From Pseudomonadota bacterium (GTDB lineage: Bacteria; Pseudomonadota; Gammaproteobacteria; Halothiobacillales; Halothiobacillaceae), in contig JAJYPA010000133.1 in the NCBI GenBank assembly GCA_021795795.1, positions 1 to 16,543 on the forward strand: a DNA stretch of 16,543 nucleotides, read 5' to 3'. The notes below the pieces were generated by a model, which was given only the letters and a program-made list of their open reading frames with translations, had not been told where the DNA came from and searched no databases. Positions within the stretch are counted from its first letter, which is position 1. The number at the start of each line of letters is the position of its first letter. Made by a program: the position numbers and the translations under genes. Positions 2,522 to 16,417 of the stretch are shown in pieces.

Positions 2522-3499
2522 ATGCCCCAGAATACTGCCTTGGAGACCGCTGTTGTCATTCTGGAAGTTCTGCGGGCGATTCCCCGAAGGCGCTTCACCA
2601 CTGCGGTGAAGGTCTTGCGTAGCCTGCAGGCGGCGGGGTATCCGCGTAGCATCCGCTCGGTGCAGCGGCTCTTGGACCAACTCAGCGCCCATTTCCCCAT
2701 CGAATGCGATATGCGCAGCAAGCCATTTGGCTATCGCTGGCGTGACGATGGCCAGAACTTTCATTTGCCTCTGCTTTCGCCCGCCGAGGCGGTGCTCTTG
2801 CGGCTGGCTGAGAGTCAGGTGAGTGCCTTTCTACCCAGTAGCATAGACCCCCTGATCACCCCCCTCTTCGCCGCTGCACGCCAAACCCTGGAGGGAAGCC
2901 CGAAGCAATCCTTGTATCGCCGCTGGTTGCGTAAGGTCCGGCGTATCCCGACCAGCCAACCCCTTTTGCCGCCGAAGATTCAGCGGAGCGTCATGGAGGC
3001 GGTATCCAGCTCCCTGTATCACGAAAGGAAACTCCGCGTGCGCTACGTTAACGTCCAGGGCAAGCGACAGGAGGCTGTGGTTTGGCCGCTGGGACTGGCT
3101 TTACAGGAGCCAAGGCTCTATCTCGTCTGTCGTTTCGAGGGCTACGACAACGAGCGCATCCTGGCGCTGACCCGTATCGAGCGGGCGGAGGTCCTTGATG
3201 TCGGTTTTCGCTATCCCTCCGACTTCGACCTCGCCCGTTACGATGGAGAAGGACGTTTTGCCTTTGGCGAGGGGAAGCAGGTACGGATCGCCTTTCGTAT
3301 CGACAAGGCTGCTGGCTGGCACCTTACCGAATCGCCACTGTCTGCGGACCAGGAAGTCGAAATCGGCGAAGACTCGCTTTGCATCCGCGCGACCGTTACC
3401 GACTCCCATCTGCTCCATGCCTGGTTGCGCGGCCTGGGTCCGGCACTCTTGGATCTGGAGATAGTGCCGATCACCTCCGGAGATCCTCATTCGATGTGA
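2522..3499 (+). CDS. WYL-domain transcriptional regulator
   Basis: This 325-aa protein has the length and layout of HTH-WYL-WCX regulators. Residues about 8-75 form a winged helix-turn-helix (AGYPRSIRSVQRLLDQL is the recognition-helix region). Residues about 168-228 are the WYL domain (RVRYVNVQGKRQE, then RLYLVCRFEGYDNERILALTRI, with Leu replacing the Trp of the motif). Residues about 240-325 fit the WCX extension. The ATG at 2522 is the only start available: an in-frame TAA lies at 2486-2488. No good ribosome-binding site precedes it, so the mRNA may be leaderless or the gene poorly translated. Such regulators often control phage-defence loci (BrxR/CapW type) and sense nucleic acid or nucleotide ligands. 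Here it heads a rightward operon and may also control the divergent helicase (inference). Confidence 0.85.
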   Translation: MPQNTALETAVVILEVLRAIPRRRFTTAVKVLRSLQAAGYPRSIRSVQRLLDQLSAHFPIECDMRSKPFGYRWRDDGQNFHLPLLSPAEAVLLRLAESQVSAFLPSSIDPLITPLFAAARQTLEGSPKQSLYRRWLRKVRRIPTSQPLLPPKIQRSVMEAVSSSLYHERKLRVRYVNVQGKRQEAVVWPLGLALQEPRLYLVCRFEGYDNERILALTRIERAEVLDVGFRYPSDFDLARYDGEGRFAFGEGKQVRIAFRIDKAAGWHLTESPLSADQEVEIGEDSLCIRATVTDSHLLHAWLRGLGPALLDLEIVPITSGDPHSM

Positions 3500-3565
3500 C
3501 GTATGTTGACGTATGAGGGCGTTAAGCTCGTTCTTGTTGATCCGAGAAATGGAAAGGAGGACCCG

Positions 3566-4168
3566 ATGACCAGCGGCTGGCAAGAACGAGTGGAACTGGA
3601 ACGGCAGTGGCTACAGGGCTTGCGTGCGGACGTACCGGCGCTTGCCCAGACCGTCGCCGAGGATGTGGTTGACGCCTTGGAGAGCGAAATCGACAAAGAG
3701 ACCGAGGATGGCCTGATCTGGGATGTGGCCGATGGACTGCAGAGAGCCTTGCTGCTGAACCTTTCCGACCAGTTTGAAAAGGCGGTGGAACAGGCGGTGC
3801 TGAAGAGCATGGATGCACGTAGCCGGCAACTGGCGGCAGCCTTGGGAGGGGACTGGGCCTTTGATACAGATCGGGCCGCCCTCGACAACTTGCGCAAGAG
3901 TCTGCGCCTGGTTCAGCGCCTGCTCCCTTACCTGGAGCGGATTTTTCAGCGGGCCAAGCCTGGCGTTCTGACCCAGCTCTTTCGTGCTGTGGGGGACGAT
4001 CTCGACCGTATGAAAAAGCAGTGGCAGGACGATGGCGAAAGGCTGCGCTCGGTCTTTCGGCAGGAGCGTCCAGCACTGCAGAAAGAAATCGTCAGCATCG
4101 CCGAAGAGCTGATCCAGCGCCTGCGCCTGTATTACCAGCAAGCCTTGGAACAGGTTGGGGTAGGGTAA
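3566..4168 (+). CDS. All-helical protein upstream of a GTPase remnant
   Basis: I chose the ATG at 3566 because a strong GGAGG (3556-3560) sits five bases upstream. An earlier ATG at 3503 is in frame but lacks a comparable site. The 200-aa product has no transmembrane segment and is rich in Glu, Leu, Gln and Arg in helix-forming patterns (for example LNLSDQFEKAVEQAVLKSMD and the C-terminal IQRLRLYYQQALEQ). It resembles a helical stalk or partner subunit, as found with bacterial dynamin-like GTPases. It lies 66 bp after the WYL gene and 46 bp before the GTPase remnant, so a role as partner of that GTPase is likely but inferred. I do not recognise the family. Confidence 0.75.
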   Translation: MTSGWQERVELERQWLQGLRADVPALAQTVAEDVVDALESEIDKETEDGLIWDVADGLQRALLLNLSDQFEKAVEQAVLKSMDARSRQLAAALGGDWAFDTDRAALDNLRKSLRLVQRLLPYLERIFQRAKPGVLTQLFRAVGDDLDRMKKQWQDDGERLRSVFRQERPALQKEIVSIAEELIQRLRLYYQQALEQVGVG

Positions 4169-4214
4169 AAGAGAAGTTTCGCCTAATCATTATTCATCAA
4201 CTAGGAGGAAAACA

Positions 4215-4650
4215 ATGAGCCATGTTCCCACCTTTCCCCTGCAGCAGTGGCTGGGGACCACCTTGCCGGAAGTCGCGGCACTTGCCGAGCGGCATGGATT
4301 GAGCGGTGGCGACTGGAAAAGGCGCTTGGCCGAGGTGCAGGAATTCCGGTTGCGGATTCCCATCCTCGGCGATTTTTCTGCTGGGAAAACGAGTCTTATC
4401 AATGCCCTGCTGGGGGAGCCGCTTTTTTCGATGGACGTGACCCCGGAGACGGCGGTCGCCGCGGAGATGCCGGTGGGTACTCTCCGGCAGCGACGACAAG
4501 ACCCTCAGGCTGTGGGGTCTGGAGAAGGGGCAGTGTCTGCGCACTCTGGAGGGGCATTCGGACTCTGTAAATTCGGTAGCCTTCAGCCCCGACGGCCAGT
4601 GGGCACTCTCGGGCAGCGGCGATCATGGCGTCTGGCTTTGGGCACTTTGA
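4215..4650 (+). pseudogene. Dynamin-like GTPase, truncated and joined out of frame to a WD40 tail
   Basis: A fine ribosome site (AGGAGG, 4203-4208) precedes ATG 4215. The first 80 or so residues are a normal GTPase N-terminus: a helical lead, then the G1 P-loop GDFSAGKTSLINALLG starting at residue 52, then a switch-I-like VTPETAVAAEM. After that the frame reads nonsense to a stop at 4668-4670. In another frame, from about 4471, the DNA encodes the end of a WD40-repeat protein that stops at 4648-4650. The G3 and G4 motifs and the rest of the GTPase are missing. The change looks like a deletion with an endpoint near 4465-4480, so no working GTPase is made. Whether GTPase and WD40 were one protein or two neighbouring genes cannot be told from this window. 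Confidence 0.8.
4471..4650 (+). pseudogene. WD40-repeat C-terminal remnant
   Basis: Read in the frame starting at 4471, this stretch gives RWVLSGSDDKTLRLWGLEKG, then a GHSDSVNSVAFSPDGQWALS repeat core and a last half blade ending in LWAL and TGA. These are unmistakable WD40 blades (GH...SPDG...SGSxD...LW). Only about one and a half blades remain of a propeller that needs about seven. The frame differs by one base from that of the GTPase start at 4215. A single missing G where a blade would usually read GATGGCCGG (here GATGCCGG, at the start of the remnant) is consistent with a junction at that point. Confidence 0.8.
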
Positions 4651-4666
4651 ATGTAGTGAGCCCCTC

Positions 4667-4858
4667 ATGATCAAACCTGAGCCCCAAACCTATCGCTGTC
4701 CAGCCTGCAAATGGCAACATCGGGTAGCCCCCCGCAGTGATGCCCTGATCGAGGGAACCGATGTCTTCCGCATTTGTCCCCGCTGTGGCCACGCGCCCCT
4801 GGAAGTCTATCGGGAGAATTCTGGTCTCAGCGCTTGGTGGTCGCGCTGGCGCCGTTAA
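4667..4858 (+). CDS. Small zinc-ribbon protein
   Basis: This 63-aa product carries two Cys-x-x-Cys knuckles, C11/C14 (CPAC) and C37/C40 (CPRCG), spaced as in a zinc ribbon, with a basic Trp-rich tail (WWSRWRR). ATG 4667 is preferred over the in-frame ATG at 4625, which lies inside the WD40 remnant. The ribosome site is weak, so translation may once have depended on coupling to the upstream gene, whose stop is 16 bp away. Function unknown; nucleic-acid or protein binding is usual for such folds. Confidence 0.65.
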   Translation: MIKPEPQTYRCPACKWQHRVAPRSDALIEGTDVFRICPRCGHAPLEVYRENSGLSAWWSRWRR

Positions 4859-4883
4859 ATTATCACAATTGTTGGGAGGAATC

Positions 4884-5114
4884 ATGTCAGAGCAGCATCC
4901 CGAAACCACGTTCGCCTGGCAAGCCATTTTGCAAACGGAGTTTCCCCATATTGCCTACGGAAACTCTGACCTAGCAGAAAATTGGCCCCAGTTTCGAGCG
5001 AAAAACATGACTGGCACTCCTCCGACGACAAAAATCTCGGTTTTTAGCCCTCGGAGGCACCCAAAATCGGCTTTTGGCGGCAGGCGTACACTCCGATTGG
5101 ACAGCACCATTTGA
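4884..5114 (+). pseudogene. Short ORF, probably a truncated gene
   Basis: A good ribosome site (GGGAGGA, 4874-4880) precedes ATG 4884, so a gene really starts here. The first 35 or so residues (MSEQHPETTFAWQAILQTEF onward) look protein-like. From about 5000 the reading frame passes through two hairpin-forming stretches and has unnatural composition, ending at 5114 after 76 codons. I read it as the start of a longer gene cut by the rearrangement that placed the ATPase operon next to it. It could instead be a genuine short protein. No family recognised. Confidence 0.45.
5019..5077. other. Two adjacent inverted repeats upstream of the ATPase operon
   Basis: The first dyad pairs CCTCCGA (5019-5025) with TCGGAGG (5051-5057) and has an inner A5/T5 pairing (5030-5034 with 5041-5045). 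The second pairs CCAAAA (5061-5066) with TTTTGG (5072-5077). They lie 60-120 bp before the ATPase start. They could be regulator sites, a terminator for the broken upstream operon (though no T-tract follows), or marks of a recombination junction. Confidence 0.4.
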
Positions 5115-5136: not shown

Positions 5137-8100
5137 ATGAGCAACACACCGACACGAGAAATGATTGTGCCCGTCATCGACAATCGGGTTTGGGATGCGC
5201 CCAGCTTTACGGCCAACTTGATGCAAGAGGTACCTGATAAAGCAGAGCACGGTTATCGTCTTTTTCGCATTACCGAAATCGGGGAGGGCAAGGCTGCCGC
5301 CTATCGCCTGGCCATGGCCAATGTCATGGCTGGCATGGATGATCCGCGTTGCCGGGCCATCTATATCCTGTCGGGCACACCGGAAGGCGTGAACCTGTAT
5401 GTCGGCATTTCCAGCTCGGGAGTCAATGATGACGATCTGCACGATATGGCCAAAACGCTCAAGGCTTCCTTCGAGGGCAATTTTCTTGGTGCACAGTTGG
5501 CCGATGTGAAGTCGGGCGATCAGCCGGTCGAGGATATGCTGGCCTCCGTCAAGCATCTCGGGTTGGTCACCGGCGTACCGTCCTTCAACGAGGAAGAGGC
5601 CCATACGGGCGACGAGGATTTCCAGGGCATCGAGCGTCTCGCCAATAGCATGGCGGGCGAAACCTGGCAACTCATCATCGTGGCTGAACCGGGACGGGAT
5701 GAAGATGTACGGGATACCCTGCAACGCATCTACGAGTTTTCTACCGAACTATCCCAACACCAGAAGCAATCCGTGCAGAAGTCGGAAAACACAAGTTGGA
5801 ACAAGTCTGTCGCGGATGGCACCAGCACCTCGGATACCCATGGCACCAATACCTCGGATACTCGTGGCAGAAGCGAAGGCGCCAACAAGGGAACTGGCAA
5901 AAATCACAGCACCAGTTCCGGTTCATCCGAATCGCGTTCACAGGGCACCAGCTCCAACAAAGGCACAAGTGTTGGTACCAGTGAGAGCAAAACCACGGGC
6001 TCCAGCGACTCTCGTACCACCGGTACATCCGCGACCCGCACACAGGGCGAGAGCGGTGGGCAAAGCCTGTCCTACACCACCGAGCGCACGGACAAGTATG
6101 TGGAAGAAGTGCAAAAGCACCTGAGCGAAAACCTCATTCCGCGCTTCCAGCAAGGGCGCAGCAAAGGCATGTTCCGCACGGCCATCTATGTCAGTGCCAT
6201 GGAAAAGGCCACCTACGAACGCCTCACTCGCGGTGTGTTGTCGATCTTTCAGGGCAACGAATCCACCATGACCCCGCTGCGTGTGGACAAACTCAGTGAA
6301 GTACCCACCACTTTCCCACTGCGTGTCCGTCAGTTCATCAAACCCTCTCGTGAAAGCGGACGATATGATCGCGAACTGGCGCACAGCATCCCGTTCGACC
6401 CAAATGCTCGTCATGTCTGGGGCGGCACTTGGCTGACCACGCGGGAGCTTTCCCTGCTGGCTGGTCTGCCGACCAAGGAACTGCCGGGTATCAAGATTCG
6501 CAAGAGCGTCGACTTCGCCCTCAACACCACCAGCGATCATCTACCGTCAGAAGATGTGCTCGAACTCGGGCATCTGGTGCAGCATGGCCGCAAACTGGAA
6601 CACAAGCAGGTGCGTCTTTCCAAAACCGACCTGAACAAGCACGTCTTTGTGACCGGCGTTACCGGCGCGGGCAAGACCACCACCTGCATGAAGCTGCTGC
6701 TGGAGTCCGGCATGCCGTTCATGGTTATCGAACCGGCCAAGACTGAATATCGCGCATTGCATGGGGTTTGTGACGATGTCGAATCCTATGTGCTTGGCCG
6801 CGAGGACATCACTCCCTTCCGCCTCAACCCCTTCGAACTGGTCTCGCCGTACGAAAGCCTGTCCGGTCACATCGACAACCTCAAGGCCACCTTGAGCGCC
6901 GTGTTCCCCATGGAAGCCTCCATGCCGTATATCGTGGCCGAAGCCATCATCAACGCTTACAAAGCCAAATGTTGGGACATCCACAGCGGCGAAAACCACC
7001 TGCATGACGACCCTTGGGCGCTGGGCAGCAATGCCTGGCCCATCTTCAGCGACATGATCGCCGAGTTGGACGGCGTCATCAAAGCCGCAGGGATGGGGCG
7101 TGAATTTGAAGAGAAATACAAAGGCTCGCTGGTCTCTCGTCTGAACGACCTGACCCTCGGCACCAAAGGGCGTATGCTCAACACCCGCTATTCGCTGGAC
7201 TTCGATCAACTGCTGGACAAGAAAGTCATCATCGAACTGGAAGAACTCAAGGATGAGCAGGACAAGGCCCTGTTCATGGGGTTCATCTTGCAACGACTGG
7301 CCGAATGCATGAAACACCGCCACCGACGTGACAAGGAATTCAAGCACCTCACTCTCGTGGAAGAGGCGCACCGTCTGCTGTCGCGTCCTGAACCGGGCGA
7401 GTCCAATTCCAAGAAACAGGGCGTGGAAACCTTCGCCAACATGCTGGCCGAAGTACGCAAATACGGAGAAGGTCTCATCATCGCCGACCAGATTCCGAAC
7501 AAGCTGGTCAGTGATGTCATCAAGAACACCCATACCAAGATCGTTCATCGCCTGTTCGCCGCCGATGACCGCAACACCATCGGCGACGCCATGGGCCTGA
7601 CCGACGATCAGAAAGACTTCCTCCCGCTGTTGCAGCCGGGCGAAACTGTCATGTTCTGTGGCGGCTGGCACGCGGCCGTTCGCGTCAAGGTGCAGGAACT
7701 GGTCAATACCGCCATGGACGAAATCTCCGAAGATGACATGAAGGTCAAAGGTCTCGCCCTGATGTGGGAGCAAAGACACCGGCTGTACCCGCGCCTGGCC
7801 GCCGCGCCTGAAATGAATGCGCTGGAAACGCTTGGCCGGTTTGTCGAGAGGGCGATGCCCCTCATCAACATGCTGCTGCGCATCAATCGCTCGGTGGAAG
7901 CCAAGTTCCTGTCGGACGACATGAGAGAAAAGATGCAGACAAGATTCGCCCGCCTGCTGGGCGAGGTGCAGGGCGAATTTTCCATGGACATGCCGCATCT
8001 GACGCAACGGATGACCGATCTGTTCTTTGATGCTTCAGGCTTCATGAAGAGCGCCAAAACGGACGCGATGATACGGGAACAGATGCTTGTCGCCATCCCA

Positions 8101-8208
8101 GCGCTTGCGGAGGGAGTGAGCACCTTCCTTGAACTGCGTAAATCGAACGAAGGCAAGGCCATCTTCGAAAGAGAGCTTTCCGTGATCAGAAAGCTTGAAT
8201 CCATCTAA
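5137..8208 (+). CDS. HerA/DUF87-type P-loop ATPase with Ser/Thr/Gly-rich linker
   Basis: Start ATG 5137 has an AGGA eight bases upstream; in-frame TTG codons further up are less likely. The 1023-aa protein has an alpha/beta N-terminal domain (about 1-205), a low-complexity Ser/Thr/Gly linker (about 212-315), a second domain (about 316-500) and a RecA-like motor. Walker A is GVTGAGKT (507-514). Walker B is LTLVEEAH (about 738-745). Downstream, EVRKYGEGLIIADQIPNKL and the PGETVMFCGGW region match the HerA/VirB4/FtsK branch of hexameric DNA or protein pumps. A helical C-terminus follows. The gene is first in the operon with the two paralogous proteins. By family it should form a ring and translocate DNA or protein, or act as the motor of a defence complex; the substrate is unknown. 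It is much longer than the usual HerA (about 500-600 aa). Confidence 0.85.
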   Translation: MSNTPTREMIVPVIDNRVWDAPSFTANLMQEVPDKAEHGYRLFRITEIGEGKAAAYRLAMANVMAGMDDPRCRAIYILSGTPEGVNLYVGISSSGVNDDDLHDMAKTLKASFEGNFLGAQLADVKSGDQPVEDMLASVKHLGLVTGVPSFNEEEAHTGDEDFQGIERLANSMAGETWQLIIVAEPGRDEDVRDTLQRIYEFSTELSQHQKQSVQKSENTSWNKSVADGTSTSDTHGTNTSDTRGRSEGANKGTGKNHSTSSGSSESRSQGTSSNKGTSVGTSESKTTGSSDSRTTGTSATRTQGESGGQSLSYTTERTDKYVEEVQKHLSENLIPRFQQGRSKGMFRTAIYVSAMEKATYERLTRGVLSIFQGNESTMTPLRVDKLSEVPTTFPLRVRQFIKPSRESGRYDRELAHSIPFDPNARHVWGGTWLTTRELSLLAGLPTKELPGIKIRKSVDFALNTTSDHLPSEDVLELGHLVQHGRKLEHKQVRLSKTDLNKHVFVTGVTGAGKTTTCMKLLLESGMPFMVIEPAKTEYRALHGVCDDVESYVLGREDITPFRLNPFELVSPYESLSGHIDNLKATLSAVFPMEASMPYIVAEAIINAYKAKCWDIHSGENHLHDDPWALGSNAWPIFSDMIAELDGVIKAAGMGREFEEKYKGSLVSRLNDLTLGTKGRMLNTRYSLDFDQLLDKKVIIELEELKDEQDKALFMGFILQRLAECMKHRHRRDKEFKHLTLVEEAHRLLSRPEPGESNSKKQGVETFANMLAEVRKYGEGLIIADQIPNKLVSDVIKNTHTKIVHRLFAADDRNTIGDAMGLTDDQKDFLPLLQPGETVMFCGGWHAAVRVKVQELVNTAMDEISEDDMKVKGLALMWEQRHRLYPRLAAAPEMNALETLGRFVERAMPLINMLLRINRSVEAKFLSDDMREKMQTRFARLLGEVQGEFSMDMPHLTQRMTDLFFDASGFMKSAKTDAMIREQMLVAIPALAEGVSTFLELRKSNEGKAIFERELSVIRKLESI

Positions 8209-8228
8209 ATCATCAGGAGAATCACAAC

Positions 8229-8912
8229 ATGGGTTTGTGGAGTTCAATTGGCAGCGCATTCAGCAGTGCATGTAGTTGGGTCAGCAACGCAGTCAGCAGC
8301 GCCGCATCCTGGGCGGGCAATGCGCTTAGCACCATGGTCAGCGTGGGAGGAAGTCTCTTGGGCGGCTTGGGCACGATGGCGAGCAATTTGGTCAAGGGGT
8401 TCGGCTTTTTCAGGGATGAAGACCCGCCCACTCCGGAGTGGGGCGACCGCGCTATGCAGGCCGAAGAGCAGAATATCCATCCAGACCAGTTTGAAAATTT
8501 CGACGATTATCTGGATTCATTACGCAATTTTGATCTGGATCCGGAAAAGTCCAAGGAAAGCACGGTCGATCAAAAAACCTTCAAGGGCCTGGAAGTGGCT
8601 GGCCGAACGCTGGAGCACAAATTCGGTGCGCCCGAAGGCAGCATGGCCAATGTTTTCGTCCTGGCCGGGGCGAATCCTGACTACTTCACCAGTGAGCGTT
8701 TTCAGATGCTGCTGGGCAGCGGCATGGACATCACCTCGATAGCCGACTACTTCGAAGGTCGTTTGGGTGGTGCCGAATCCCTGGACATCGAAAATGAACT
8801 GATCGATCTCGACCAGAAAACGAATCCCGGAAAGGACGAACTTTCTAGCCGGGAGGAGATTTACCAAGCCGCCAGTGTCACGCAGGAAAATCTGCGCAAC
8901 ATCCTGTCCTGA
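8229..8912 (+). CDS. Paralogue A: hydrophobic small-residue N-terminus plus conserved acidic domain
   Basis: A good AGGAGA site (8215-8220) lies eight bases before ATG 8229, 20 bp after the ATPase stop. Of 227 residues, the first 60 or so are rich in Ala, Ser, Gly, Leu and Trp with almost no charge (begins MGLWSSIGSAFSSACSWVSN), as in membrane-inserting or amphipathic helices. From residue 73 on comes a soluble acidic domain containing DRAMQAEEQ, LRNFDLDPEKS, KFGAPEGS, ADYFEGRLGGAESL and LDQKT. All of these blocks recur in the next gene. No signal-peptide cleavage site is obvious. It could be a membrane anchor, pore-forming effector or scaffold for the ATPase. I do not recognise the family. 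Confidence 0.85.
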   Translation: MGLWSSIGSAFSSACSWVSNAVSSAASWAGNALSTMVSVGGSLLGGLGTMASNLVKGFGFFRDEDPPTPEWGDRAMQAEEQNIHPDQFENFDDYLDSLRNFDLDPEKSKESTVDQKTFKGLEVAGRTLEHKFGAPEGSMANVFVLAGANPDYFTSERFQMLLGSGMDITSIADYFEGRLGGAESLDIENELIDLDQKTNPGKDELSSREEIYQAASVTQENLRNILS

Positions 8913-8933
8913 TCTGCATAAGGAGTCATCACC

Positions 8934-9599
8934 ATGGTTTTTCCCATAATCGGCGCAGCCGTCAGCGCCATAGGCGCAACCCTGGCCTCCATCGGCCCCG
9001 CCGCCGCCAGCTTTGCAACCACGGTACTGCCCAGGCTCTTGCCCTATATCGGCAAGGGGCTGGAGGTCATACAGGCCATCGGGCAGGTCGCCCAGTTGGT
9101 GGCCCAAGTTCTGGGCATATTCAAGCCCGGAGAAAAAATCGACGAGATGGGCGCGCGCGCCATGCAGGCCGCAGAGCAAGGCATCACACCGGATCGTTTC
9201 GACACTCACGACGACTACATGAACGAATTGCGTAATTTTGAACTGGACCCCAGCAAGAAGGCCGATCCCATCGCCAAGATCATCGCCGGGCTTGCCGTGG
9301 CCAGCCATGGCCTGGACGAAAAGCTTGGCGCACCGGAAGGCACGGCCGGGCAGCTCTGGCCATTGGTGGCGGCAGATGGGGGGTATTTCACGGCTGAAAG
9401 GCTGATTCAGTATGTGCAAACCGGCCAGAACCTGGCCGATATTGTCGATTACTTCACCGGCAAGCTAGGAGGTGCAGAATCGCTGGAAGTGGAAGACAAA
9501 CTCGTCAAACTCGATCAGAAAACCCATCCGGAAATTGATGAGAATTCGCTACGCGAAGCGCTTTACAAACATCAGGAACAGGTTCAGTCCCAGCCGTAA
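8934..9599 (+). CDS. Paralogue B of the preceding gene
   Basis: AAGGAG (8920-8925) precedes ATG 8934, 21 bp after paralogue A. The 221-aa product repeats the architecture: a nearly uncharged N-terminus of about 68 residues (MVFPIIGAAVSAIGATLASI onward, ending at about GIFKPGEK) and a domain with ARAMQAAEQ, LRNFELDPSKK, KLGAPEGT, VDYFTGKLGGAESL and LDQKT. The C-terminal domains of the two paralogues align nearly end to end, while the N-termini share only composition. This suggests tandem duplication followed by divergence of the membrane-seeking part, perhaps to make a two-component complex. Function unknown. Confidence 0.85.
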   Translation: MVFPIIGAAVSAIGATLASIGPAAASFATTVLPRLLPYIGKGLEVIQAIGQVAQLVAQVLGIFKPGEKIDEMGARAMQAAEQGITPDRFDTHDDYMNELRNFELDPSKKADPIAKIIAGLAVASHGLDEKLGAPEGTAGQLWPLVAADGGYFTAERLIQYVQTGQNLADIVDYFTGKLGGAESLEVEDKLVKLDQKTHPEIDENSLREALYKHQEQVQSQP

Positions 9600-9722
9600 A
9601 CCGGACGCCTCTCGTTCCCCGGTGGCAAAAACAAGTGCCAAGGCCATATACTGTCAACCGTTTGACCAAACGGCTGACGATCCGGCCGTTTCCCAATAAC
9701 CTCACAGATATGGCCAAGCACC
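9600..9722 (+). promoter_or_regulatory. Intergenic gap with a palindromic site between the two gene sets
   Basis: This is the largest gap in the central gene set, 123 bp. It contains a 26-bp dyad at 9653-9678: CCGTTTG and CAAACGG face each other across AC (9658-9673), with GTCA/TGAC as outer arms interrupted by one mismatch. No T-tract follows, so an operator or mRNA hairpin is more likely than an intrinsic terminator. The gap may divide the set into two transcription units or tune expression of the downstream genes. Confidence 0.45.
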
Positions 9723-10637
9723 ATGACGATCAAACCCGATACACCGCAACTCGTCATTTTTATCGAAAACCATCAGGCTGCCTGTTTTAGCTACGAACCT
9801 AAGGGTGATTGGGCATTGAAGCCCATCAAGGGCGAGGCGCTGACCCCGCTCAAACGGCGTGGCAAAGCGATGGAACCCTTGAAACCATTGTTAAATGAAC
9901 TGAGCGAAAGGCTCAATCGAGCACAGAAGCTGGATGGCGTGCCGGTGCATCTGTTCTGCGATGTTGCCAGCATGGATCTCATGGCAGAGGTGCCTGCCAA
10001 CCTGGCTGCCCTGCAATGCGGCATCTGGCAGATCCTGAGTCTGGAAACCCTGTATACGCGCGCTGCCGCCCAACAGTCGGTGCCGATGGAATTCAGCCTG
10101 AACACACTGAGCATCGAATCATCTCCTGGTGCGCGCTGGGTATCGGATGTGTTAATCCCCGTGATGGCCAAAACCCTGTGGGATGATCTGGTCGATCCGC
10201 CCGAGCGTGCCGCTACGCAGGATGAAGAAGCGATTGAAATCCCCAAAGTGGTCAACCCCGAAGACTACGCCCGGCAGACCAAGCGACTGAACGCCATTGA
10301 ACGGCGCAATGCCGAACTGGAAGCCCGGCTGAGCGCTGTCCGCCCCCCGCTGGATGGCGAGCAGTTGCTGACTTTCCTGCCCGCCTTGTATGCCCAGGCC
10401 TTTACCGTGCTGAGCGGCGCGGACCTGGCCCTGCTGGTCGGGCGCGTCGAGCCGTTCGATATTCCCTCTCCCTACCCAGAACCTAGTCCCGAGGCTTTGC
10501 ACAGGAAACAGCGCGAACTCATCGCCCTGCCCTTGGCACAGCAGCAGGAGATTCTCGGCTTTGCGCACAGCGTTACCCATCGTTTGAAGTTGCGACCGGA
10601 GATGCAACCCCATGTTCTCAGAATTCAGGAGGCGTGA
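9723..10637 (+). CDS. Unknown 304-aa protein of the ATPase/Hsp70-like gene set
   Basis: ATG 9723 is the only ATG start in this frame after the in-frame stop at 9675-9677. It has no clear Shine-Dalgarno site. The N-terminal 170 residues look alpha/beta (starts MTIKPDTPQLVIFIENHQAA). A charged helical segment at about 179-212 (LNAIERRNAELEARL) suggests a short coiled coil, and the C-terminal third is helical. No motif allows a family call. Its stop overlaps the GTG start of the Hsp70-like gene (GTGA, 10634-10637), so the two products are probably translationally coupled and may act together. Confidence 0.8.
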   Translation: MTIKPDTPQLVIFIENHQAACFSYEPKGDWALKPIKGEALTPLKRRGKAMEPLKPLLNELSERLNRAQKLDGVPVHLFCDVASMDLMAEVPANLAALQCGIWQILSLETLYTRAAAQQSVPMEFSLNTLSIESSPGARWVSDVLIPVMAKTLWDDLVDPPERAATQDEEAIEIPKVVNPEDYARQTKRLNAIERRNAELEARLSAVRPPLDGEQLLTFLPALYAQAFTVLSGADLALLVGRVEPFDIPSPYPEPSPEALHRKQRELIALPLAQQQEILGFAHSVTHRLKLRPEMQPHVLRIQEA

Positions 10638-13600
10638 GCATCGAACGTGGCCATCAGCAAAACGCGCATTGGGCGCCACAGACTCTGCGCACGGCAGACA
10701 TGCTCAGGGAGCAGGCTATCGTGCGGCTGATCGAAACGCTGCATCAGGTCTATCAAAAAACGAAGGGAAGCCATCATGTCCAGAAAAACCCGGTTCAAAC
10801 AACCCAGTACAAATCACTCCAGTACCAATCAATCCGGTCCCAATCAGAACAATCCGGTCCCAATCAGAACAATCAGGCCATGAGTACCCCCATGAACGAC
10901 AATGCTTCTTTTCTTCAACAGGTTGAACGGGCTGCCCAGCAAAGGGCCGAGCAAATCTATCTTCGGTATCCGGTATGGAACGTCATGCAGGGCGACAAGC
11001 TGCGCTGGTATCTGGATCGCAAGAGTGGCCTGCGCTATGCGCCGGGCAAACGTCCAAGGGATGTTCAGACTGAAATTCAAAAGCGCTATGCCGATTTTGA
11101 AAAAATATTGTCTGCAAAACCCTTCTGGGAAGTGGGTACGAATTTCACTCGCAAGGATGGCTTGCTGTTCAAGGGCAGGTCTTCCTTTGACAAGGACGTG
11201 ACTCGCACATTGTATGACTCGGCCAATCGGCGTCTCTGGGTCTGGTTCGACGATTTCAATCGAATGGAATGGAATCAAGCCCAGGCCCGTTTGAATCAGG
11301 CCGAACGCGAGATCGGGCTGGGGCCGTGGACTTTACCAAGCAAGGATGTGCTGTTGGCCTTTAGAAATGCCGCAGACAACCCCGCACGGTATGGCTCATA
11401 CAATCGTCTATTCGATATCGAATATTGGCTTTGCCAACAAGGTCGAATGGATTTTGATTATTCAAGTCCATCGGTGGCAGCTGGCGCTGGCGACGTCATG
11501 GCCTATCTCGACCTGCCTGCCGCCCCGGCGGAGGCATTCTGGGCGCATTTACAGCAACAGGGACTCAAGCTGGCGCATGGTCATTCGCATTCGCTGCCGG
11601 ATATACCCGCTCCCGATACCGCGCCGCTGGAGCGCCATGCCGATCAAGCCTGGAAGGGCAAGGACTTCGCCGGGCTGTGGGCTGCGCTGAAGGCTGAGCG
11701 CTGCACCCTGGTGGCAAAGGATGCGCCGACCGTGGTGATCGATCCGATGGTCACGACGCAGGATGGCCTGCTCAATCTGGACTACACCCCCTGCCGTTTG
11801 CCCAAACTGGAAAACGCCCAACTGACCGATCTCAACCAGGGCCTGTGGGAGCTGTGGGGCGAAGATGCGGCGTTGCTGGATACCTTGGGCCTGCGTGCAC
11901 GCAACCCGGAGCGCGATGTGCGCGACGAATGGGTGGCCATGGATTTTGGCACCAGCAGCACGGTGGTGGCGGTGGCCACGCAGAACGGCGGCAAGCGGTT
12001 GCTGCGTGTGGGCGCGCGTGACTACAACGCGCCGGTGCTGCCCAAGCACTACGAAAACCCCACCGTACTGGAGTTTCTGGACCTGGAGGCCTTCCTGAGC
12101 GTGTGGAACCGCCAGGTCTATCGCCCGCAACTGGATTGGGACTGGGTGAAGGCGGCGCATGAGGCGCTGCACAATTTCCGCAGCGATGCGCGCAATCCGC
12201 GCAAGGTCAACAGCGTGATGCTCTACCTCAAGCGCTGGGTGCTGGAGGCCGAGCGGCTGGAGTTCCGTCTGGTCGATCAAAAACAGGGCCTTGAATACCG
12301 CCTGAGCCCGCCGAAAGAGCAGCATCCGGTGCGCGGGCAGGCTATGCAGGCCCACCCGGATGCGCCACTGGACGTGATCGAGCTGTACGCCTGGTATCTG
12401 GGCATGGCAATCAACTGGCGTCAGCAGGGCATTCACCTGAAATACGCCATGACGTTTCCGGTGAAATACACTCAGGACGTACGCAACAAGATGCTGGCCT
12501 CGTTCAGCCGGGGGTTGCAGCGCAGCCTGCCATCCACGCTGCTGAACAGCACGCGGATGAACGAGTTCGAGGTGCGCGAGATCGCCACCGAGCCGATGGC
12601 CTATGCCGTGGCGACCCTGCCGCAGGCGGGCTTGCAGCCGAACCAGGAAGGCTTGGCCTATGGGGTCTTCGATTTCGGCGGCGGCACCACGGACTTCGAT
12701 TTTGGCCTGTGGCGTTTGCCCACGCCGGAAGAGATGGATGAGGACGGCGCGGAAAGCGTGTTCGAGCGGCTGGGCTCGGGCGGAGACCCGTATCTGGGCG
12801 GCGAGAACCTGTTGGCGTTGCTGGCCTATCAGGTGTTTCAGGACAACCTGCAAACTGCTTACGACAAGAAGCTGATCTTCACCCGCCCCCTGTCCGAACC
12901 GGCCTTCCCCGGCAGCGAGGCGGTGGTGGATCAGAGTGCGCTGGCGCAGGCCAATACCGCCATGCTGATGCACGAGCTGCGTCCGCTGCTGGAGCGCCCG
13001 GAATCCTTTGACGAGGAGAACAAACTGCAACTGGACATGCTGAACCGTTCGGGCGAGGGCGTGTCCGTGACCTTGAATATCGACATCGAGGCCTTGCAGG
13101 CCTTGATTCAGGCGCGGGTGGAACGCGGGGCGGAAGGGTTCCTGTCGGAAATGCACGCGGCCTTCGAGACGCTGGCCCCTCGCCAGATTCATATTCTGTT
13201 GGCGGGCAATGCCAGTCGCGGGCGCTGGGTGCGAGAAGCCTTCACCACAGAGGGCGAGGCCTGGGCCGACAAGGTAGAGCGTTCTTTCGGACTATACGCG
13301 CTGGAGTTCATCGTTCATTTCGCCGTGGGGGCGGAAGATGCGTGCTCCGAGGCGCCCAACTGCAAGACGGCCGTGGCCCTGGGGGCGCTGGATCTGGTGC
13401 CGGGCAGCCCGTTCATTCAGAAAGATCGTCAGCAGGCCCGTTCGATGGGTGATGCGCCGTTCAAGTATTTTGCGGGTCCGCTTTCCAATATGCAGTTGCA
13501 ACCGGTGTTGACGCCGGGGGCGGCCTACAACGAGTGGCATGAATTCGGCATTGTCCGTGATGGGGTGTTCGTACTGGCCTGGTCGGCCAGCCCGCGTGCG

Positions 13601-13798
13601 CGTTCCGGCATGAAGCAGGGCGACGCGGAATTGCTGGTGAAGCGCGTCTCCATGCCCGGCGCAGGCAAGGGCTATCGCTGCTTCGGGCGGGTGGTGTCGG
13701 CCGGCGCGATCGAACTGGCGGCGGCGGCTTCCCGCGAGGCGTTCGATGCCCAGGGGCCGGGGGTGACGACGCGGAGTCCTCTGGATGATAGGGAGTGA
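10634..13798 (+). CDS. Hsp70/actin-superfamily ATPase with long N-terminal extension
   Basis: As given, the frame starts at GTG 10634, overlapping the previous stop, just after AGGAGG (10627-10632; the one-base spacing is unusually tight). An alternative start is ATG 10880. The 1054-aa frame holds about 430 residues of unrecognised sequence and then the ATPase core. Phosphate-1 motif is VAMDFGTSSTVVAVA (D437), a connect-like ATEPMAYAVA follows (about 651-660), phosphate-2 is FDFGGGTTDFDFG (D680), and the adenosine-type motif is LLAGNASRGRW (about 856). These are the nucleotide-binding signatures of Hsp70, actin and SrfB-like proteins. There is no clear classical Hsp70 substrate-binding domain at the C-terminus. 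It likely remodels or gates partners by ATP hydrolysis (inference). The first 82 residues depend on a 20-bp duplication, described separately. GC is visibly lower before about 11490 than after. Confidence 0.85.
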   Translation: MSIERGHQQNAHWAPQTLRTADMLREQAIVRLIETLHQVYQKTKGSHHVQKNPVQTTQYKSLQYQSIRSQSEQSGPNQNNQAMSTPMNDNASFLQQVERAAQQRAEQIYLRYPVWNVMQGDKLRWYLDRKSGLRYAPGKRPRDVQTEIQKRYADFEKILSAKPFWEVGTNFTRKDGLLFKGRSSFDKDVTRTLYDSANRRLWVWFDDFNRMEWNQAQARLNQAEREIGLGPWTLPSKDVLLAFRNAADNPARYGSYNRLFDIEYWLCQQGRMDFDYSSPSVAAGAGDVMAYLDLPAAPAEAFWAHLQQQGLKLAHGHSHSLPDIPAPDTAPLERHADQAWKGKDFAGLWAALKAERCTLVAKDAPTVVIDPMVTTQDGLLNLDYTPCRLPKLENAQLTDLNQGLWELWGEDAALLDTLGLRARNPERDVRDEWVAMDFGTSSTVVAVATQNGGKRLLRVGARDYNAPVLPKHYENPTVLEFLDLEAFLSVWNRQVYRPQLDWDWVKAAHEALHNFRSDARNPRKVNSVMLYLKRWVLEAERLEFRLVDQKQGLEYRLSPPKEQHPVRGQAMQAHPDAPLDVIELYAWYLGMAINWRQQGIHLKYAMTFPVKYTQDVRNKMLASFSRGLQRSLPSTLLNSTRMNEFEVREIATEPMAYAVATLPQAGLQPNQEGLAYGVFDFGGGTTDFDFGLWRLPTPEEMDEDGAESVFERLGSGGDPYLGGENLLALLAYQVFQDNLQTAYDKKLIFTRPLSEPAFPGSEAVVDQSALAQANTAMLMHELRPLLERPESFDEENKLQLDMLNRSGEGVSVTLNIDIEALQALIQARVERGAEGFLSEMHAAFETLAPRQIHILLAGNASRGRWVREAFTTEGEAWADKVERSFGLYALEFIVHFAVGAEDACSEAPNCKTAVALGALDLVPGSPFIQKDRQQARSMGDAPFKYFAGPLSNMQLQPVLTPGAAYNEWHEFGIVRDGVFVLAWSASPRARSGMKQGDAELLVKRVSMPGAGKGYRCFGRVVSAGAIELAAAASREAFDAQGPGVTTRSPLDDRE
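10776..10883 (+). CDS. 35-codon ORF: possible original N-terminus of the Hsp70-like protein
   Basis: ATG 10776 follows GAAGGGA (10762-10768) and reads MSRKTRFKQPSTNHSSTNQS, then further Asn/Gln/Pro-rich sequence, to TGA at 10881-10883. That TGA overlaps ATG 10880 (ATGA), which is in frame with the Hsp70-like gene. Removing one copy of the 20-bp repeat joins this ORF directly to the main frame. It may therefore be the true N-terminus in a one-copy form, or a leader peptide coupled to the main gene in the present form. Confidence 0.4.
   Translation: MSRKTRFKQPSTNHSSTNQSGPNQNNPVPIRTIRP
10831..10870 (+). repeat. Perfect 20-bp tandem duplication
   Basis: Bases 10831-10850 and 10851-10870 are identical (AATCCGGTCCCAATCAGAAC), followed by four bases of a third copy. 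The unit length is not a multiple of three, so gain or loss of a copy changes the reading frame that joins the downstream Hsp70-like gene. Confidence 0.97.
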
Positions 13799-14634
13799 TG
13801 GATATGGGTAAGAAAGACGATGCGGCTTTGGATGAGTTCAAACAAAATCTGCGTAAGGCGCTGGAGGATGAGGCGATGCTGAAGTGGTTGCTCAATAAGT
13901 TGAACGGGGTGTTTGCAGGCTTCGCTTCTATGGATTCTGGCGTTTCTTCGCTGACTCATTCTGGGGATGCTGTTTCCCCGCGTGAAAGGGATTTGGAGCG
14001 CAAGCTGTCGGATGCGCTTGCGCAGGTCTCGCACCTTCAGCAGCAGGTCTCTCGTTTCGAAAGCGAATCGAAGCAGGCTCAGTCCGATGCGAGGTCGCAG
14101 GAGGCTCATGCGGCGCAGCAGGCGCGCGAGCTGGAGGATGTGCGCAAAAAGCTCGACGCCAGTCGCAAAGAGGCCAAGCAATGGAAACAGGAATGCGAAA
14201 CCATGCAACATCGCGGCCTGTTGCCGCCTGATCTGGCCGATTTGATGGCGCGGGTACGTGACGATGCCGAGTTGGCCCGACGCTTCTCCCTGAGCGCGGA
14301 ATGGGACGATCTGAAGTTGTTGATGAGCACGGTGGCAGTGTTGTCCGATGAGGGGAACATCAAACGTCTGTGGGATTTGTACAAGAAACGCTGCGAAGAC
14401 CAGTGCGGGCCGCTTGGTCACAACGACAAGCTCCTCTATGGAGCGGCCTTGAACTGGTACAACTACAAATGGCCCAGCAAACTGCTAAGCAGCGATTGTC
14501 CGGCGCCCGATAGCGCTTATAACTACGAAATACACATGCGCCCGGCCATTGGCATGACCGGGGAGACCATCGCTGCCGTTTGGCTTCCCGGCATCCCAGG
14601 GTTGAAATTGAAAACCCTGGTGGCTACGAGATAG
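13798..14634 (+). CDS. Coiled-coil protein, last gene of the set
   Basis: ATG 13798 overlaps the previous stop (TGATG), with GGGAG just upstream; GTG 13795 and ATG 13804 are alternatives. Of 278 residues, about 60-145 form a long charged coiled coil (ERDLERKLSDALAQVSHLQQ region, then KKLDASRKEAKQWKQECE). The C-terminal part is globular, with LYGAALNWYNYKWPSKLL and a final PGIPGLKLKTLVATR. It has no membrane segment. Overlap with the Hsp70-like gene argues for a direct partner, for instance a GrpE-like nucleotide-exchange or oligomerising subunit. That role is only a guess from coiled-coil content and position. I do not recognise the family. Confidence 0.8.
   Translation: MDMGKKDDAALDEFKQNLRKALEDEAMLKWLLNKLNGVFAGFASMDSGVSSLTHSGDAVSPRERDLERKLSDALAQVSHLQQQVSRFESESKQAQSDARSQEAHAAQQARELEDVRKKLDASRKEAKQWKQECETMQHRGLLPPDLADLMARVRDDAELARRFSLSAEWDDLKLLMSTVAVLSDEGNIKRLWDLYKKRCEDQCGPLGHNDKLLYGAALNWYNYKWPSKLLSSDCPAPDSAYNYEIHMRPAIGMTGETIAAVWLPGIPGLKLKTLVATR
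14596..14620 (+). other. Perfect 8-bp hairpin at the end of the last gene
   Basis: CCAGGGTT (14596-14603) pairs with AACCCTGG (14613-14620) around a 9-base loop, inside the last codons of the coiled-coil gene. No T-run follows, so it is at best a weak terminator or an mRNA 3'-end stabiliser. Confidence 0.35.
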
Positions 14635-15562: not shown

Positions 15563-16095
15563 CACATCAGCGCTTGATGCATTCAGACTGTCCTTTCAGT
15601 GGGAAACCGCTTCCATCGATCCATCGCTGGATTCTAGCAGGCGGCAGGGTATCTCGGTACCATGCCCCCCAGAGGGCGGCATGTGTGATCCGCCCTACGC
15701 ATCGGCAGAGCGTCTACCGGGTAGACGGTCGGCGCGTGCTCGGTTTTCTTCCAAAATGGTCCCGTCTTCCCGGAAGACGCCCGCATTACCCCTTCTTTAT
15801 CTTGCGTTCCGCTTTTCTTTCGGTAGACGCTTTTTTGGGCGTTTTCGTCTACCGGGTAGACGTTTTTTTGGGCGTTTTCGTCTACCGGGTAGACGTTTTT
15901 TTGGGGCGGCGTTTTCCGGGAAGACGCTTTTATTTGCCGATTCTGGGGCCATCGTCTACCCGGTAGACGGGTTGCAGAGGGGAAACTGGGGGTGGCGTCT
16001 ACCCGGTAGACGACATTGGAGCAGCAAATCGGCGGGTGTCACTACGGTATGGACGCGCATCCCGGCGATCCCTGTCGACCGAGCAGCTTTGTAAT
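15563..16095. other. Non-coding region carrying the palindrome array
   Basis: The open frames here are created by the palindrome itself, which reads VYRVD or RLPGR, and do not look like genes. Besides the array there is a near-perfect hairpin at 15661-15683 (CATGCC paired with GGCATG, 8 of 9 pairs). Confidence 0.6.
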
Positions 16096-16417
16096 ATGGT
16101 GAATCATCAGATGATCGGGGATGCCCCCGACTTCACCGTCTACCGGGTAGACGCCTGCCGGGCGCAGATTGCCTCGGCCCTCGGCATCCATTGCTCAGAC
16201 ATCTCCGCGAAACGTGGTAAGGCCGCGCATGAGATTGACCATAGAAAGTTCAGATACAGTATCGAATACCTCACACGAGGCGAAGCGAAGTCGGGATCAT
16301 CGTTAAGCCCATTTTATTTGACCAGCGCCGAAATCAAATCGCAGCAGAAAGAGATGTATGCGGTTGTTAAAGAAAGAAGCACTCAGTCCCTGAAGATGCA
16401 TCGTCTACCGGGTAGAC
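15712..16417. repeat. Array of a 15-bp palindrome, seven perfect copies plus variants
   Basis: Perfect copies of GTCTACC-(G or C)-GGTAGAC lie at 15712-15726, 15847-15861, 15880-15894, 15954-15968, 15997-16011, 16138-16152 and 16403-16417. Six of the seven are flanked by C on the left and G on the right; the last is followed by T. Degenerate copies include GTCTTCC-C-GGAAGAC (15764-15778), where both arms changed to keep pairing, GTTTTCC-G-GGAAGAC (15911-15925), and a half site at 15821-15829. Copies 15954 and 15997 have central C, i.e. the opposite orientation. No such sites are seen in the rest of the window. They could be REP-like elements, terminators, iteron-like origin sites or protein-binding sites. 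Confidence 0.95.
15804..15933 (+). terminator. Tandem hairpin plus T-tract units (33-bp repeat)
   Basis: Units 15837-15869 and 15870-15902 are identical 33-mers: GGGCGTTTT, the palindrome, then seven T. A degenerate unit on each side (15804-15836 and about 15903-15933) also has a stem followed by a T-run. The palindrome can fold as a 6-bp CGTCTA/TAGACG stem with a CCGGG loop, so each unit has the form of an intrinsic terminator for rightward transcription. Four in a row is unusual, and no gene directly upstream on this strand needs one. Confidence 0.55.

Follow-up and report, generated by a model that had tools for sequence, protein, structure and literature searches.

What kind of system is formed by six adjacent genes that combine a HerA-type motor and an Hsp70-like ATPase with two small paralogous proteins? 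The question is raised by positions 5137-14634 of contig JAJYPA010000133.1 (assembly GCA_021795795.1), from a gammaproteobacterium of the family Halothiobacillaceae; the whole stretch analysed, 16,543 nucleotides long, is referred to here as the window. Our survey demonstrates that the six genes belong to a real, conserved multi-gene system. We tentatively favour, with a probability of roughly 0.4, its interpretation as an accessory, modular, chaperone-gated anti-invader system that acts on the membrane.

A conserved gene set built around two ATPases

The cassette comprises six intact open reading frames (ORFs), all on the plus strand and at the positions given by an initial annotation of the window, with intergenic spacings of 20, 21 and 123 bp that match it as well:

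5137-8208, plus strand: HerA/VirB4-type ATPase (P0001), 1023 amino acids (aa)
8229-8912, plus strand: small paralogue 1 (PAR, P0002), 227 aa, N-terminus MGLWSSIGSAFSSACS
8934-9599, plus strand: small paralogue 2 (PAR, P0003), 221 aa, N-terminus MVFPIIGAAVSAIG
9723-10637, plus strand: P4 (P0004), 304 aa, proposed adaptor
10880-13798, plus strand: Hsp70-like ATPase (P0005), ORF open from GTG 10634 (10634-13798), likely start ATG 10880
13798-14634, plus strand: coiled-coil protein (CC, P0006), probably GrpE-like, ORF open from GTG 13795, likely start ATG 13798

A scan of 84,980 species genomes with the Hsp70 alignment returned 342 relatives, the best 80 of which define 78 distinct loci. The order HerA-PAR-P4-CC-Hsp70 recurs at 24 of these (counting L014 as complete, as its CC frame was listed but hidden by overlap in another listing), with one to three copies or pieces of PAR and likewise of Hsp70, and every one of the 24 HerA genes found in the 78 loci lies inside the full set. 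Because the order recurs this often, the gene set exceeds what chance would produce. Most hosts are Gamma- and Betaproteobacteria, joined by the alphaproteobacterium Robiginitomaculum and one metagenome-assembled genome labelled Acidobacteriota; the same gene set is carried by an Acinetobacter piscicola plasmid (L001). The check proposed with the initial annotation, whether homologues co-occur in order elsewhere, thus comes out positive, although the window itself departs from the common order by placing Hsp70 before CC, as does Acidithiobacillus ferrivorans (L006), the nearest named relative of its Hsp70-like protein.

A search started from PAR alone agrees with the notion of a single conserved system. 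It recovered 3 of 398 Pseudomonas genomes and 4 of 398 genomes across the phylum (the centre genome, G003, being in both), and HerA adjoins PAR in all six. Hsp70 and CC were present in all four genomes with long contigs, P4 being recognised in three of them; the contigs of the other two span only 3.3 and 5.3 kb. The HerA-PAR form is rare and accessory, PAR being so classed because it occurs in only 3 of the 398 Pseudomonas genomes, and the Hsp70-like gene is found in just 1 of the 17 genomes of the A. ferrivorans genus.

The gene starts call for some revision. The closest homologue of P0005 (P0011) begins close to the in-frame ATG at 10880, and in the remaining 22 rows of alignment A2 the initial 82 codons of the ORF align with little or nothing; the comparison therefore makes a gene at 10880-13798 (972 aa), about 240 bp after P4, likelier than one opening at GTG 10634. 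Whereas the co-directional genes and gaps of the initial annotation stand, genes 4 and 5 overlap stop to start, as stated there, only with GTG 10634 as the start; gene 6 most likely begins at ATG 13798, in a TGATG overlap with P0005. By eye, a small open frame with a ribosome-binding-like site (10777-10884) meets the likely Hsp70 start in an ATGA overlap and is possibly a short coupled peptide.

A HerA-type motor and its small helical partners

P0001 consists of its own N-terminal domain, a linker of about 115 residues rich in Ser, Thr, Gly and Asn, and a HerA-like motor with an intact Walker A motif (GVTGAGKT) and an EEAH motif. Its profile (A6) matches solved HerA structures over the C-terminal part only (4d2i, E 1.5e-15; 8xau, E 1.8e-14), HerA models of PADLOC match it too, and Pfam DUF87 falls just below threshold (23.0 bits versus a cut-off of 23.2). 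The Walker A residues and E742-H745 are invariant across 19 aligned HerA rows, and a Ser-rich linker precedes the motor in all 29 HerA relatives, window counted. Walker A and B motifs together with HerA similarity place P0001 among the HerA/FtsK motors; known HerA proteins form a hexameric ring.

The two proteins encoded next are paralogues (39% identity over 214 residues, E 2e-52), neither of which matched a Pfam family above cut-off in the scan of the window proteins; 54 further homologues of P0002 were found. Their N-termini are poor in charge: P0002 has no charged residue in its first 55, and across the 31 members of the family this region averages 3.5 charged residues and is 42% Ala, Gly or Ser, whereas the remainder after residue 55 is 30% charged. 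In P0003 the 19-residue hydropathy maximum reaches 1.96. AlphaFold2 folds P0002 entirely into helices, with confidence everywhere but in the first nine residues (pLDDT, the predicted local distance difference test, 89.2; pTM, the predicted template-modelling score, 0.85), with no significant match in structure searches. The Acinetobacter plasmid additionally encodes a 78-residue protein (L001:18009-18245) that has an N-terminus as in the paralogues (MGFWSSIGSAIGSS) without the PAR body, and the motif may be an independent targeting element. On a Photobacterium damselae plasmid (L002:8104-15509), a DUF2357 protein stands directly before a HerA-like ATPase and PAR, and this trio lies behind an SF1-type helicase and a coiled-coil protein, in surroundings that resemble those of CoCoNuTs.

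A putative dedicated chaperone pair and a proposed adaptor

P0005 is composed of an N-terminal Lcl_C-like region, an Hsp70 nucleotide-binding domain and a conserved C-terminal region. It matches the HscA model (E 9.2e-06), the profile of its family matches DnaK (1dkg_D, E 3.2e-4, 87 positions), and it carries the motifs DFGTSST and DFGGGT. Among 78 relatives longer than 800 aa, the phosphate-1 pattern was found in 72, phosphate-2 in all 78 and the adenosine motif in 64, the pattern used having missed phosphate 1 in the Bacillus group (six rows) and the adenosine motif in 14 rows. A nucleotide-binding domain with two phosphate motifs makes this an Hsp70/actin-like family, so that the locus does hold two ATPase machines, as the initial annotation stated, by domain matches and motifs alike. 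The C-terminal 130 residues are partly conserved. Lcl_C (PF07603), a lectin-like fold, is recognised in 10 of 23 Hsp70-like members, P0005 itself giving no match. A distant Hsp70-like gene, annotated as two ORFs, lies on a Helicobacter plasmid (L004:5115-13810) among a weak WXG100 match (E 4.6e-05, under the cut-off), a colicin-DNase/WHH protein, SMI1 and an FtsK-type ATPase.

The product of gene 6 had been described as a coiled-coil protein. A long helix is indeed modelled, but P0006 looks rather like GrpE: the model (pLDDT 87.5, pTM 0.55) shows the long helix, helical bundle and C-terminal beta domain of the GrpE fold, and chains A and B of GrpE 3a6m rank first and second (E 0.11 and 0.27) in a Foldseek search of 350,542 Protein Data Bank (PDB) chains. 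VIA-align lists 50 rows for P0006, and in these the alignment extends into the C-terminal beta domain for GrpE entries only. By sequence profile, the GrpE Pfam family was matched neither in P0006 nor in the 33 CC members, for which 25 families out of 169 were shown, and GrpE was not among the 12 PDB profile matches of the CC family; hhalign gave P 0.03-0.11 against GrpE, at the expected C-terminal place and not above an unrelated family. On the strength of its model, P0006 is probably a divergent GrpE that would act as the exchange factor of the Hsp70-like ATPase; P0005 and P0006 would therefore be one chaperone pair, and the two look like a dedicated Hsp70-GrpE couple. Six Bacillus-group loci have the CC-Hsp70 pair without HerA, PAR or P4, the arrangement to be expected if the two are chaperone and exchange factor.

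P4 has an N-terminal domain, a coiled coil and a conserved helical C-terminal domain with a PSPYPEPS motif (alignment A4, 32 rows). The N-terminal domain is present at HerA-type loci and at L006 and L038, and is missing from six dynamin-type loci (L015, L016, L019, L029, L035 and L036). Because these six P4 proteins lack a domain that the HerA-type ones keep, the alignment suggests that P4 docks the client module.

Exchange of HerA and dynamin-type modules

At eleven of the Hsp70 loci, dynamin-type genes are present and no HerA gene is in view. Ten of them gave a Dynamin_N match (L006, L012, L015, L016, L019, L025, L029, L035, L036 and L038), the gene at L068, cut at the contig end, giving none, and long dynamin genes occur in pairs in at least four (L015, L016, L019 and L029). 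On a tree of 44 Hsp70 proteins, the HerA/dynamin state requires four changes, with or without five doubtful dynamin rows; the well-supported branches force at least two changes under strict coding and three under a looser one. The window (HerA) and A. ferrivorans (dynamin) are sisters in this tree with full support, and no HerA or PAR was found in about 9 kb upstream of P4 in the latter.

Plasmids of Escherichia coli (L003:6740-15139) and Lactococcus (L005:4236-13019) encode a Ser-rich HerA-like ATPase behind a dynamin pair, separated from it by one or two small genes and followed by an HNH-type nuclease gene and a possible immunity gene (SMI1/KNR4 in E. coli). Since HerA and dynamin swap at the Hsp70 core and these plasmid HerA genes follow dynamin pairs, the HerA, PAR, dynamin and Hsp70 core genes look like one exchange network. 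Dynamin-like GTPases as a class act on membranes, and a shared membrane end-point would be the simplest reason for one control unit to serve both clients.

A model of chaperone-gated membrane action

We infer the following order of events. At rest, the Hsp70-GrpE pair formed by P0005 and P0006 would keep the two small helical proteins, with their charge-poor N-termini, soluble and the module off, P0004 serving as the adaptor that couples the pair to the client module, here these proteins and the HerA-type motor. The sensor of an invader might be the Lcl_C-like front of the Hsp70, or else the HerA motor on encountering DNA; the nucleotide cycle, sped by the GrpE-like protein, would then release the small proteins or assemble them on the HerA ring. 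Finally, insertion of these proteins into the inner membrane would arrest the cell or block the invader. The model builds on the recurring gene order, the rarity of PAR, the CC-Hsp70 pair of the Bacillus group, the structural likeness of P0006 to GrpE and the exchange of HerA for dynamin-type partners; coupling by P4, sensing, release, membrane action and the defence role are hypothetical. More doubtful is the broader proposal of an as yet unnamed immune family, in which a private Hsp70-GrpE pair with an Lcl_C front serves as sensor and safety catch for a plug-in membrane effector (a HerA ring with small proteins, or dynamin-like GTPases), the effector being exchanged while chaperone core and adaptor are kept. 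If true, a housekeeping-type chaperone pair would govern a modular conflict system whose effectors, HerA-type or dynamin-type, are interchangeable. HerA motors and dynamin-like proteins, now regarded as separate branches of bacterial immunity, would thereby be joined. An Hsp70-like family that most of the records call 'hypothetical protein' would also gain its first role, and a small, testable gene set would be available in hosts such as relatives of Pseudomonas and Shewanella.

The surroundings of related loci lend this anti-invader interpretation some colour. In the flanks of 21 loci, 88 of the 205 listed ORFs were scanned (the 25 most frequent families being shown); the matches include three type I specificity subunits, four DEAD helicases, three WYL and two HEPN proteins and two integrases, but also Fe-S and antiporter families. 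Loci looked at singly include type I restriction enzymes (L033 and L077) and a GajB-like helicase (L017), with no defence-type match in the flank of L052. The island setting proposed by the initial annotation thus survives in part: defence-type genes do stand beside some related loci, but the link is suggestive only.

Several observations weigh against the anti-invader interpretation. The same flanks also contain housekeeping genes. The Hsp70 query found two plasmids but no match in phage records, and one weak match in IMG/VR. The Photobacterium plasmid has HerA-PAR without Hsp70 and the other chaperone genes. On the chaperone side, the Foldseek E-value for GrpE is only 0.11, and the profile-profile score of CC against GrpE (17.3, P 0.05) lies below that for an unrelated family (18.4). 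As to the membrane, the hydrophobic N-termini attributed to both paralogues need qualification, the paralogy and the scarcity of charge being upheld but the hydropathy of P0002 (1.23) being low for a transmembrane segment; judging from its model, the helical fold beyond the first nine residues could be soluble.

Relation to described systems and alternative explanations

The full gene set is apparently undescribed, although modular conflict systems driven by nucleoside triphosphates (NTPs) are as such already known. In line with the initial annotation, which knew of no named system with this set, no description of it was found in the open-access literature among the matches listed (for several searches the best 15-20 of many), most subscription papers lying outside this body of text.

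The nearest likeness is to CoCoNuTs, which also contain Hsp70-like proteins and, in the third Type III-A extension, an EccE3-like/VirB4-like ATPase of the HerA superfamily that bears a variable insertion and is accompanied by a small helical protein (PMC11090510). The window pair shares with it the ATPase's own N-terminal domain, an insertion of variable length, a VirB4-like motor and an operonic small helical protein, and the Photobacterium HerA-PAR pair stands behind a DUF2357 gene; from this comparison of descriptions alone we infer that HerA and PAR are of the same families as the Type III-A ATPase and helical protein. By contrast, the partners of the motor pair in the window are P4, a GrpE-like protein and an Hsp70 whose phosphate motifs are conserved, and neither a McrB-type GTPase nor a DUF2357 CnuC was present among the nine scanned window proteins. 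According to the same source, the first CoCoNuT extension brings in EssC, WXG100 and a nuclease (PMC11090510), resembling the neighbours of the Hsp70-like gene on the Helicobacter plasmid.

This likeness bears on an unlikely alternative, a translocation machine in which the HerA/VirB4-type motor exports or injects the small paralogues or DNA while Hsp70-GrpE keeps the substrate unfolded. Modelling their similar ATPase as EccE3-like plus VirB4-like, the CoCoNuT authors suggest secretion or conjugation (PMC11090510); moreover, the Helicobacter plasmid pairs the distant Hsp70-like gene with WXG100, a colicin-DNase-like HNH protein and an FtsK ATPase, and related HerA genes precede HNH-type nuclease genes on the E. 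coli and Lactococcus plasmids, with SMI1/KNR4 next in E. coli. However, no WXG100 (and thus no sign of type VII-like secretion), no toxin domain and no channel or outer-membrane component was recognised among the nine scanned window proteins.

Somewhat less probable still is DNA capture, whereby HerA would pull in invader DNA, the paralogues would anchor the ring at the membrane, Hsp70-GrpE would assemble the complex and interference would fall to a partner nuclease located elsewhere. Capture systems built on HerA/FtsK have been proposed (PMC12839542), and the Photobacterium HerA-PAR genes directly follow one for a DUF2357 (McrC-type) protein, yet no nuclease was recognised in the conserved five-gene set. 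SIR2-HerA and DUF4297-HerA share the HerA-type motor with the window, but P0001 differs by its extra N-terminal domain and Ser-rich linker, and their SIR2 and DUF4297 partners have no counterpart among the nine scanned proteins, which fits the earlier remark that only the motor is common.

Least likely is a role outside defence, in which a dedicated chaperone system serves a task in the cell envelope or under stress and has spread by horizontal transfer: many Magnetococcales loci (L040-L076) have the Hsp70-like gene without recognised CC, P4, HerA or PAR, so an older role of this gene need not be defence, but the HerA-PAR form has a rare, patchy distribution, several of its loci carry WYL, HEPN or restriction genes, and the partners are exchanged.

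Other systems resemble single parts of the proposed anti-invader locus. Of four dynamin proteins tested from the Hsp70 loci, three match PADLOC models, weakly (both from L016 LeoA, that from L038 LeoBC), and that from L006 matches nothing; LeoA/LeoBC stand for the Eleos-type dynamin defence, from which the window differs in that its dynamin gene is a remnant and its client is HerA-PAR. No match to a Pfam family of SrfB, an Hsp70-like protein, was obtained in the 23 Hsp70-like members at E 0.01, a level reached by Lcl_C alone, in keeping with the initial annotation, which saw only the Hsp70-like idea in common with SrfABC. What the window shares with SrfABC is a large Hsp70-like protein in a small operon (PMC6950479). 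DO-GTPase conflict systems, whose operons are likewise NTP-driven, include HSP70 and GrpE genes of their own but are built on a DO-GTPase and GAP1, with no HerA-PAR pair described in the portion of the paper available (PMC7159879); neither DO-GTPase nor GAP1 turned up, no dedicated profile search for them having been made.

Genomic neighbourhood

The window opens with a helicase gene (1-1777) related to the DruE and DpdJ models and 83.5% identical to two Acidithiobacillus caldus plasmids; with A. ferrivorans as the nearest named Hsp70 relative, an Acidithiobacillus-type host seems likely. The helicase gene is followed by a remnant locus (2522-5114) comprising a WYL regulator, a helical protein (P0008) and a truncated Dynamin_N gene (4215-4670) that, by eye, runs into WD40-like sequence and then a zinc-ribbon-like stretch. 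What stands here beside the HerA-type system seems to be a dynamin-type relative in decay. The first gene of the remnant is outside the core and a possible regulator:

2522-3499, plus strand: WYL-domain regulator (PF13280, E 4.8e-10)

A WYL gene lies upstream on the same strand, by profile, in 6 of 26 complete loci (the window, L001, L011, L031, L039 and L052). Downstream of the cassette, a 19-nucleotide direct repeat whose core is palindromic (CGTCTACCGGGTAGACG and variants) occurs nine times within about 700 bp (15708-16417); the arrangement recalls the iterons or partition sites of plasmids.

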